This document shows positions 41,922 through 45,991 of a stretch of 50,484 nt of DNA, in pieces. The first letter of the stretch is position 1. Every line of letters starts with the position of its first letter. This stretch comes from Rhodospirillaceae bacterium Spongia-Bin9 (GTDB taxonomy: Bacteria > Pseudomonadota > Alphaproteobacteria > Bin65). The notes under the pieces were generated by a model. It was not told where the DNA came from. It did not search any database and saw only the letters and a list, made by a program, of their open reading frames with translations. A program made the position numbers and the translations under genes. The stretch is from contig FZLR01000012.1 in the NCBI GenBank assembly GCA_900197615.1, positions 1 through 50,484 of the forward strand, in the 5' to 3' direction.

Positions 41922-41944
41922 GGGAGGGGATGAGCCCGCCTCCC

Positions 41945-42064
41945 GTCATTTCGACCGGAGCGGTTCGCAGAACCGCGTAGCGGAGAAATCTTTCAACTGC
42001 GATGCCCGGTCCAGAGCACCGTACTGGAAAGATTTCTCCACTCCCTTCGGTCGGTCGAAATGAC
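41945..42064. mobile_element. 120-bp nested inverted-repeat element (MITE-like), copy 1
   Basis: Terminal 13-mers GTCATTTCGACCG (41945-41957) and CGGTCGAAATGAC (42052-42064) are exact inverted repeats. Inside, GGAGAAATCTTTC (41982-41994) and GAAAGATTTCTCC (42027-42039) are a second exact pair. No ORF. A second, diverged copy is at 45747-45991. Confidence 0.75.
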
Positions 42065-42181
42065 AGGTGAGGCTCGCCGTAGACTGCATTTCGAAGCCCC
42101 GTATCGAAGGGCGGCCCGTTTCGCCGCGTTGCCATCGGCCGGTTCCTTGTCTATGTCGCACACGGTCCTGTACGGCCCCGC

Positions 42182-42258
42182 GCGCCAGTAGCTCAGCTGG
42201 ATAGAGCGTCGCCCTCCGGAGGCGAAGGTCAGGGGTTCGAATCCTCTCTGGCGCGCCA
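42182..42258 (+). tRNA. tRNA-Arg (anticodon CCG)
   Basis: Acceptor stem GCGCCAG pairs with CTGGCGC, discriminator G, encoded CCA (42256-42258). The D arm holds AGCTCAGCTGGATAGAGC. The anticodon stem TCGCC/GGCGA encloses CTCCGGA with anticodon CCG. The T arm is AGGGG-TTCGAAT-CCTCT. It reads CGG codons. 77 nt. Confidence 0.97.
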
Positions 42259-42510
42259 TTTCTCCGGCCTCTCGCTGCAGTCCGCAATGCCGGCAAGCTG
42301 CCCTCGATATAGGTACGAACCCGTTCCGAGGTCTGTACCCGTTGTGTCTGTAGCGTCACCATCATTATTCGCCGACGATCCTTGACGCCGGTTACAGGCT
42401 CATGTCTCGTCGGACATGGCTATGCGTTGCGCATCGCGTAATCGTCGTGTAGCCTTCTTTCGAGTAGTGCGCCGCTTAGCGCGCTTCTCCAAGCGAAACG
42501 GAGGATGAAT

Positions 42511-42762
42511 ATGAGAAGTGGCGATCAAATGTTGCAACATCTCGTTGAAAAATCCGCTCTGGACGAGGAATTCAGGCACCAGTTGCTTGCAGATCCCAAG
42601 GCTGCAATCAGTGCGGAACTGGATATTACAATTCCAGAGTCGATGACGATCCAAGTGCATCAAAGCGATATGCAGACCGTGCATCTCGCGTTGCCGCCGG
42701 ATCCGCACATCACCGAAGAGCAACTCGAAGCTATCTCAGCCGGTCTCTGCTGCTGCTGGTAG
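42511..42762 (+). CDS. NHLP-type RiPP precursor with CCCW core
   Basis: An 83-residue peptide of the nitrile-hydratase-like leader type. Leader blocks are ALDEEFRHQLLADPKAAISA, then ITIPESMTIQVHQSDMQT, VHLALPP, and ITEEQLEAISAG. The peptide ends LCCCW, with codons CTC TGC TGC TGC TGG then TAG. If cut after Ala-Gly, as such leaders often are after Gly, the core is only four or five residues. GGAGG (42500-42504) fits ATG 42511 best; 42505 is also ATG. No lanthionine, cyclodehydratase or radical-SAM enzyme is nearby; the next gene on the strand is a Rieske oxygenase. The product and maturation are unknown. A cofactor or metal-binding role is possible because of the three cysteines, but this is inference. 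Confidence 0.75.
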   Translation: MRSGDQMLQHLVEKSALDEEFRHQLLADPKAAISAELDITIPESMTIQVHQSDMQTVHLALPPDPHITEEQLEAISAGLCCCW

Positions 42763-43222
42763 ACCCGGCAGCCGGCAAGTAGCCGGCTCAGATGCGGAAC
42801 CAACCGCATTTGCGCACAGCTTGAACCGAACCCCCGTCATCTTTCGGAAAGCGATTCTTGGAGTTGCGCCCGATGTGCTTCGGTTGGCCGGGGTATGGGT
42901 GCATCTGGCGAAGCCACGGGGGCGTCCACGCCGGAATGCGCCGATGGGTCGCCACGCAAGCGGGCGCCGCGGATTCCGGTTGCGTTCGGGATCGGTCACC
43001 GGACAGCCCCCGAATATTTTTCCCGGCATCAGGACTGCCTCCTCTCCAGTTGCGCGTTGACAGGGGTACTCGGCACTATCCGCATAAGGGCCTTGGTGCG
43101 GTGCATCTGTAGTGTTCTGATATGGATGCCAACCAATAACCCAGTTGGCATGCATAGCGTTCGCTGGCCAGTTGATGTGAAGCGTGAAGTGCTTCATTCG
43201 TCTCGACAAGGGATTTCGAACT
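42763..43222. other. 460-bp region between the RiPP precursor and the Rieske gene
   Basis: Apart from the hairpins at 42771-42809, I see no gene with coding character on either strand. Short frames (for example 42821-43060 plus, and 42736-43452 minus) are basic and have no family motif. The GC-rich first 280 bases contrast with the AT-richer last 130, so it may be a junction or a remnant. Confidence 0.5.
42771..42809 (+). terminator. Two hairpins just after the RiPP precursor
   Basis: GCCGGC (42771-42776) and GCCGGC (42782-42787) form a stem (with a flanking A-T pair). ATGCGG (42792-42797) and CCGCAT (42804-42809) form a second. They begin 9 bp after the precursor stop and could end or attenuate transcription before the Rieske gene. 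The T-run is only three bases. Confidence 0.45.
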
Positions 43223-44404
43223 ATGGACAAGTCTGAACGAATTCGAGTTTTAGACGTTATAAACGAGCACATTGACAACGATACTACCGCAGATTCTGGC
43301 GGCATTATGTGTGTACCGATGTCGGATTTCACTTGCCCGGAGATCTTGGCGAAGGAGCAGGATGCTGTCTTTCGAAACACCGCTTTGTGCATGGGCCTTT
43401 CCAGCGCACTACCGAAACCCAAGACATATTGGTCGGACAATGTAACAGGCATTCCGCTTCTTATGGTCCGAGATGGTGAAGGGCGATTTCGAGCGTACGC
43501 TAACGTCTGTCGACATCGAGGTAGTCAGATCGCACCCGAGGGACGTGGGTCGAAAGCGAGCTTTACATGCCCCTACCATGCATGGACATACGGTATCGAT
43601 GGGAGTTTGCTGGCGATTAACAAGGAAAGCCATTTTGGGAAAGTCTGCAGAAAGGAATTGTCACTCTTCGAACTGCCTTCATCGGAATTTCATGGGATGC
43701 TGTGGGTGCGACCGACCCAGGGCGATCCTGTAGACGATGTCGAGTGTTTAGGTGGACTTGAAGATGACCTGGCGCACTGGAAATTGGCCGACTTTCCGTT
43801 TGCTCACACGCAAGTCATCGATGCGCGGGCAAACTGGAAAATGGCGATGGATACTTTCGCTGAGAACTATCATGTCAACATTCTTCATGCGGAAACCGTC
43901 GGCAAAGAGATGAAGGCAAACCTGCAAACATGCGACATTTTCAATAATAACCTTCGCTTTGTTTATCCCAATCAAAAATTGGACCTTATGCGATTTCTAA
44001 CGTCGGATACGAAACGATGGCCTTACCCACAGATTGTTACCACTCTGTACTATCTCTACCCAAACGTTATCATGATGGTGGACTCATTTGGCGTCGACCT
44101 GTTGCGATTTTTTCCGCTCGAAAATTCGCCTTCGAAATCCCGAACCGTCCATACCTGGTACATTAGCCCGAAAGTACAGCCACGCCTCAAGGAATTTGGG
44201 TATACGTATGAAGAAAGAGCTTCGCGATTCGGGGAGGTTATTGTAAACGAAGACTACGAATTGATCGCGAATATTCAGTTTAGCGCCGAACGTGGGACTC
44301 CATCAGAGATGCTGCTTGGACGGAACGAAGGTGCATTGCAACATATTCACAATGCGCTCCGATCGGCAGTCGGTCATGATTTGTTGCCGGTTGAGGAGAA
44401 TTAG
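43223..44404 (+). CDS. Rieske non-haem iron oxygenase, alpha-subunit type
   Basis: A 393-residue oxygenase. The Rieske cluster ligands are Cys96-x-His98 (CRHRGSQ) and Cys116-x2-His119 (CPYHAWTYG). The mononuclear iron site is in NWKMAMDTFAENYHVNILH (His217, His222), with Asp344 in VNEDYELIANIQ as the third ligand. It would hydroxylate, dealkylate or desaturate a substrate using electrons from a separate reductase, none of which is here. Start ATG 43223 (AGGGA upstream) is chosen over GTG 43184. The gene is clearly less GC-rich than its surroundings, so transfer is likely. Modification of the upstream peptide is a hypothesis only. Confidence 0.9.
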   Translation: MDKSERIRVLDVINEHIDNDTTADSGGIMCVPMSDFTCPEILAKEQDAVFRNTALCMGLSSALPKPKTYWSDNVTGIPLLMVRDGEGRFRAYANVCRHRGSQIAPEGRGSKASFTCPYHAWTYGIDGSLLAINKESHFGKVCRKELSLFELPSSEFHGMLWVRPTQGDPVDDVECLGGLEDDLAHWKLADFPFAHTQVIDARANWKMAMDTFAENYHVNILHAETVGKEMKANLQTCDIFNNNLRFVYPNQKLDLMRFLTSDTKRWPYPQIVTTLYYLYPNVIMMVDSFGVDLLRFFPLENSPSKSRTVHTWYISPKVQPRLKEFGYTYEERASRFGEVIVNEDYELIANIQFSAERGTPSEMLLGRNEGALQHIHNALRSAVGHDLLPVEEN

Positions 44405-44632
44405 CCCGGACTTTCTTGTCTCACGGCGTTGTGCGTTTTGAAGGGCGGACCGGGAACTCCTTGAAGTTGGCCACATTTCGATGGCTTCACGTTGCCGGTG
44501 CGCCGATTGCGCCGGCGGCCCCTTTCGTGGCATGGTTTTGCCTTGCAGCGATGCGCTTCGGTCCGGTGCCGGCCCGGCTTCGGACCGCGGCGGCGTGCGA
44601 CAGCCTTCGACGGACGGGAAAGGAGAAGGCAT

Positions 44633-45585: not shown

Positions 45586-45746
45586 AGCGCTGCGCCGCCG
45601 CCCGGACGCTCGCATCGCGTTTCGATGGGTTGACGCCGGTCGATGAGAACATTATATGAACATAAGGCCAAGGCGGATCGACCCCACCGCCAGGCCCGGC
45701 CATGACGAAACCGGACATTTCATGACATTTGCGAATACGTTGTCCC

Positions 45747-45991
45747 GTCATCCCGACCGAGCGAAGGGAGCGGAGGGATCCCGGCTCGATCCATCGAACG
45801 GGCACAGGAGTCCTGCAACGAGATTCCTTGTGTCTCATCGAACAGTCACCGGGTTTATGGTGCCGGTGGCGGAAGCGGGCGGGAGACCGGCGATTTCTTG
45901 GTCCTGAAGACCGCAGCGGAGCTCGGCTCCCCGCCCGCTGTTCCTGCGAACCCGAACAGTCGCTCCGCTCACTCCGTTCGGTCGAAATGAC
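45747..45991. mobile_element. 245-bp inverted-repeat element (MITE-like), copy 2
   Basis: GTCATCCCGACCG (45747-45759) faces CGGTCGAAATGAC (45979-45991): 11 of 13 bases pair. The right end is nearly the same as in the copy at 41945-42064, and the left end differs in two bases. The interior is longer and unrelated in most parts. The surrounding 45586-46014 gap has no gene. Confidence 0.65.

Follow-up and report, generated by a model that had tools for sequence, protein, structure and literature searches.

A two-gene islet pairing an SrpE proteusin precursor with a Rieske oxygenase in a sponge symbiont: a candidate tailoring module for the srp pathway

What does a Rieske oxygenase do beside the gene of a short peptide precursor, and could the peptide be its substrate? 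The question is raised by a 50,484-nucleotide stretch of a bacterial genome (the window), in which the two genes lie close together on the same strand. An earlier note on this DNA had taken the peptide for a new core type, possibly with a metal-binding or redox-active product. We compared both genes and their surroundings with homologues from other genomes and with the published proteusin literature. Coordinates are collected in Table 1.

Table 1. Features of the srpE–Rieske region (positions in the window)
Feature	Position	Strand	Basis
tRNA-Arg (CCG)	42182..42258	+	ARAGORN, Rfam; start of empty sites in congeners
Inserted islet of ~2.2 kb, srpE and Rieske gene only	42293..44493	.	empty sites, GC
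Ribosome-binding site GGAGG, serving ATG 42511	42500..42504	+	sequence
srpE homologue, 83-aa proteusin (NHLP) precursor (start likely)	42511..42762	+	TIGR03793, homologues, dN/dS, published core
Core peptide LCCCW, AG leader end just before	42745..42759	+	SAGLCCCW in 84 of 84 sequences, published core
Two hairpins beyond srpE stop codon	42770..42809	+	alignment and fold
Rieske non-haem iron oxygenase, 393 aa	43223..44404	+	Pfam PF00355, PF00848

The open reading frame of the peptide spans 42505–42762, or 85 codons counted from its first ATG. The ATG at 42511 is the likely start because GGAGG lies 6 nt upstream and the alignment of most homologues begins at the same residue, in agreement with the 83 residues originally proposed. 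The leader scores 57.1 bits against the NCBIfam model TIGR03793 (cut-off 50.9), which bears out its reading as a nitrile-hydratase-like (NHLP) proteusin leader. A scan of GTDB genome contigs yielded 148 relatives. The best 80 of these 148, kept as loci, are 78%–88% identical to the window peptide and come from metagenome bins labeled Gammaproteobacteria, Alphaproteobacteria, Acidobacteria, Gemmatimonadetes, Rhodothermales, Binatia, Opitutales, and others. The ending SAGLCCCW is identical in all 84 tabulated sequences and is present at all 80 kept loci, which represent many phyla.

This core has been described. In SrpE, which has the core LCCCW, the YcaO cyclodehydratase SrpC converts the three cysteines to thiazolines and SrpI brominates the C-terminal tryptophan at indole-6 in a leader-dependent manner (PMC10286304, PMC10858898). 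SrpI uses an L-x4-L motif at residues 67–72 (PMC10858898); in the same numbering the window peptide reads I67-TEEQ-L72, with isoleucine in place of leucine at residue 67, as in most homologues, and L72 matching L72 of the published motif. The very short core pointed out in the earlier note is thus the published SrpE core rather than a new type (PMC10286304, PMC10858898), and cleavage after Ala-Gly is plausible. Given the invariant ending together with the published core and enzymes, the window peptide, by its sequence, is SrpE, a known precursor of sponge-microbiome srp proteusins, and the central novelty first claimed for it falls. The srp proteusins, with SrpE, the YcaO enzyme SrpC, and the Trp-6 brominase SrpI, are reportedly also treated by Nguyen et al. 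(2021, JACS 143:10221). Going by the srp literature and bin labels, the hosts are sponge symbionts. The window's genus also holds a divergent SrpE-like precursor (L163, G465:C24:34678-34923) that is 60% identical, has the core LCCCGI without the tryptophan that SrpI brominates, and adjoins an MMPL-like gene.

The earlier note saw no maturase, protease, or exporter, which holds for the window's contig (C171) and not for the genome. Contig C165 carries a complete srp cluster with a second srpE, 77% identical to the window copy, which lies outside that cluster. The C165 cluster encodes a Trp-halogenase-family protein, a YcaO protein, a desaturase/GlnE-like protein, an ABC exporter with a C39 peptidase, one further ABC transporter, an NHLP-fused protein, and a conserved protein of 372 aa that matches no Pfam family, a gene set common to most srp loci fetched. 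The SrpC-type YcaO gene (L084 2120-4513) and the SrpI-type brominase gene (L084 725-1990) were assigned from their Pfam families and the shared order of genes, as distinct from direct comparison with the published sequences. These genes can provide in trans for the export of the peptide, the cut after Ala-Gly, and the modification of the core, as the earlier note had allowed, and we infer that the C165 machinery processes the islet copy. The Rieske gene is the only enzyme gene in the islet; the YcaO and halogenase genes are in the cluster. The NHLP-fused protein (L084 13152-14669 and homologues, 430–505 aa) joins an NHLP/nitrile-hydratase-like segment to a domain without assignment and is conserved in ~59 srp loci. 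At L041, L047, and similar loci, 5–7 kb separate srpE from the genes for the brominase and the YcaO protein, or the order is rearranged; srp gene order is therefore fluid.

The two genes entered the window's contig as an insertion. A 5.2-kb DNA search within the genus identified empty sites in three congeners (G465, G464, and G279), which run from the same tRNA-Arg(CCG) to the sequence preceding a cupin gene and join window position ~42294 straight to ~44494. The islet begins ~35 bp beyond the 3' end of the tRNA gene, its ends are placed to ±~15 bp, and a short direct repeat, GCCGG, occurs at either end. Islet GC is 0.52 and GC3 is 0.52–0.58, versus a GC3 of 0.85–0.90 in three neighboring genes, in keeping with the foreign composition noticed earlier. 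No integrase or transposase was recognized within the islet, and an Rfam scan returned nothing except the tRNA. Relatives of the peptide were absent from viral contigs, plasmids, and PHROGs, so a phage or plasmid carrier is not supported. Short dispersed repeats occur on either side of the region (41940-42075 and 45695-45830), with many copies at ~75%–95% identity in this and congeneric genomes. Beyond the srpE stop codon, the first hairpin (GCCGGC-loop-GCCGGC, 42771-42787) is followed by a second (ATGCGG-loop-CCGCAT, 42792-42809). The first occurs within 55 nt of srpE in 33 of 83 loci, versus 0.23 expected, and is also found after srpE in other phyla; the hairpin pair is conserved across several phyla. 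In complete srp loci a terminator-like hairpin often comes next; it is weak or missing in the window.

The Rieske protein exceeds the cut-offs of both the Rieske and Ring_hydroxyl_A Pfam models, and its gene has an alternative start at GTG 43184. The cluster ligands (C96, H98, C116, and H119) and the iron-binding histidines (H217 and H222) are invariant across five clade members, and D344 is likely the third iron ligand judging from its sequence context, which would complete the His-His-carboxylate site of a Rieske non-haem iron oxygenase. No reductase gene was noted beside the Rieske gene in the window. An AlphaFold2 model, built from five sequences only, had a pLDDT of 31.6 and was set aside.

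Genomes that gave srpE loci, together with the window's own genome, were searched for Rieske genes to place this one. The window's gene falls in a clade of 14 sequences (55%–100% identical to it, support 100/100), seven of which lie within 4 kb of srpE and 11 within 50 kb, the four further members being 16–47 kb away on the same contig; the last three sit on contigs other than that of srpE. By comparison, none of the 16 sequences in the sister clade, which is 43%–48% identical and occurs in similar genomes, lies within 50 kb of srpE, and its one same-contig case is ~294 kb away (Fisher P = 7e-6 for 11/14 versus 0/16, a value that ignores relatedness among the sequences). Three bacteria carry an srpE–Rieske pair outside any srp cluster: the window's genome, a gammaproteobacterium (G448, Rieske protein 82% identical), and a Vicinamibacterium-labeled genome (G389, 78% identical). 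The DNA shared among these sites consists of srpE with ~65 nt after it and the Rieske gene, and the flanks are unrelated. Inside srp clusters, the Rieske gene lies between srpE and the brominase gene at three loci (L034, L038, and L058) and adjoins the brominase gene, srpI, at a fourth (L025). At L165 and L167, both on srp-cluster contigs, the far end of the cluster has a clade Rieske gene near a gene of the TANGO2 family, and at L165 an amine-oxidase-family gene is close by as well; these neighbors are possible further accessory enzymes.

Samples not chosen for srpE were consistent with this distribution. Among 385 genomes of the window's class, no Rieske protein exceeded 38% identity except the window's own, and among 369 genomes from the class of G448 and 193 from that of G389, clade hits occurred only in G448, G389, and G408, all of which bear srpE. 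Co-occurrence of this kind is weaker evidence than physical linkage, because the sponge lifestyle is a shared confounder. The link to the Rieske gene suspected from the window alone is real and recurrent: three bacteria that are not related to one another carry the pair, each at a different and unrelated site. The earlier note had asked whether CCCW and a neighboring Rieske gene are conserved together. CCCW is conserved throughout the tabulated sequences; a Rieske gene stands beside srpE or the brominase gene in only a minority of loci, but in unrelated bacteria and from one particular oxygenase clade, and most srp loci have none nearby. The word Rieske was absent from the srp papers searched (a set without the 2021 JACS paper and its supplement), no paper was found that combines Rieske, RiPP, and proteusin, and broader searches gave no title on point. 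As far as the searched literature goes, the pairing is undescribed.

Both genes are under purifying selection. Among the three srpE–Rieske pairs, dN/dS is 0.08–0.10 for srpE (about 0.09 for the window copy against two distant copies), which marks a constrained gene, and 0.16–0.18 for the Rieske gene. Synonymous divergence gave no support to transfer of the two genes as one unit: dS is ~0.57 for the Rieske genes versus ~1.2 for the srpE copies, so either recombination has replaced srpE copies or the pairing came about more than once. The divergence among the three orphan srpE copies is no lower than that between srpE pairs taken at random, and in a nucleotide tree srpE is too short to resolve them.

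The identity of SrpE, the machinery in the genome, the Rieske linkage, and purifying selection together lead us to favor, on genomic grounds and with a probability of roughly 0.55, a reading in which the Rieske enzyme serves the srp pathway as an accessory tailoring oxygenase and has the SrpE peptide as its substrate. The islet would add a second precursor and this oxygenase to a symbiont that already has the pathway. SrpC would cyclize the three core cysteines and SrpI would 6-brominate the tryptophan, as in published SrpE, and the C39 protease-exporter would cut the leader after Ala-Gly, all with enzymes encoded on C165. The Rieske enzyme, with electrons from a reductase encoded elsewhere, may then oxidize the peptide or the released LCCCW product, for which the thiazoline, leucine, bromoindole, and C-terminus are candidate positions. 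More tentatively, and at a little under even odds, the clade as a whole may be dedicated to RiPP maturation, oxidizing SrpE-derived peptides and recurring together with srpE, as a very small accessory module of two genes, among unrelated sponge symbionts, where it would diversify an otherwise invariant product. In sponge bacteria of many phyla the srp core is the same down to its final residue. An oxygenase dedicated to the pathway would bring in a new tailoring step and would put Rieske chemistry to a use in RiPPs that the searched literature does not report. The srp literature searched gave neither a final structure nor a biological role for the product. The two-gene islet is a small and directly testable unit.

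Counting against a tailoring role are the scarcity of Rieske genes at srp loci and the enzyme's nearest relatives, which are carnitine monooxygenases among solved structures and glycine betaine monooxygenase among NCBIfam models (GbcA, NF058607, 96.3 bits versus a cut-off of 670). With such relatives, the enzyme could instead act on a small quaternary amine. The lack of support for joint transfer of the pair, and a genome (G448) that has the pair but in which neither SrpC nor SrpI was detected, also weigh against the tailoring role. The main rival to a tailoring oxygenase is accordingly a hitch-hiking catabolic demethylase, acting for example on a sponge quaternary amine and sharing islands with srp as a mobile niche gene without touching SrpE. 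It gains from the bridging glutamate before the first iron-ligand histidine, as in the carnitine enzyme 6y9c, from a clade member (L170) near an MTTB trimethylamine methyltransferase gene, and from the three clade members away from srpE contigs. We consider it unlikely, if still a serious contender, because no sister-clade gene in similar genomes comes within 50 kb of srpE, as most genes of the window's clade do, and because a clade gene stands between srpE and the brominase gene in three srp clusters.

A self-contained route of SrpE plus the Rieske enzyme, independent of SrpC and SrpI and leading from this core to another product, is improbable. G448 has the pair with no SrpC or SrpI homologue detected at the thresholds used, but it is a metagenome bin that may be incomplete, both other pair-bearing genomes also carry a full srp cluster, and the unchanged core fits selection by the same enzymes. 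Still less credible is a passive, disused remnant of a transferred srp cluster: the weak or missing terminator-like hairpin and the lack of transport or maturase genes with the pair would fit it, but the open frames, intact ligands, and low dN/dS of both genes in three distant hosts do not. The cofactor-like peptide of the earlier note, metal-binding or redox-active and with its cysteines free, was proposed from three adjacent cysteines beside a C-terminal tryptophan; it is rejected with near certainty, since SrpE cysteines become thiazolines and its tryptophan is brominated (PMC10286304, PMC10858898), the window's genome encodes both enzyme types, and none of the dedicated maturases of PQQ, mycofactocin, or methanobactin lies beside the precursor.

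The islet genes resemble known systems only in part. With CntA (carnitine) and GbcA (glycine betaine) the Rieske protein shares a two-domain alpha subunit, a CxH-x17-CxxH cluster site, the bridging glutamate, and the His-His iron site, but it scores far below the GbcA cut-off and belongs to its own srpE-linked clade. MprE-MprC/MprD and polytheonamide-type proteusins also have an NHLP leader, and the best match of the window leader among solved structures is the MprE7 chimera 8tb1; their cores differ, and so do their enzymes, which form azoles on cores of another kind or work by radical SAM chemistry. The srp proteusins have the same 83-aa NHLP precursor, LCCCW core, and L-x4-L numbering, relatives across many phyla of sponge-associated bacteria, and a complete cluster in the window's own genome. 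The window copy differs from them in lying outside that cluster, where it shares a 2.2-kb islet with a Rieske oxygenase gene.
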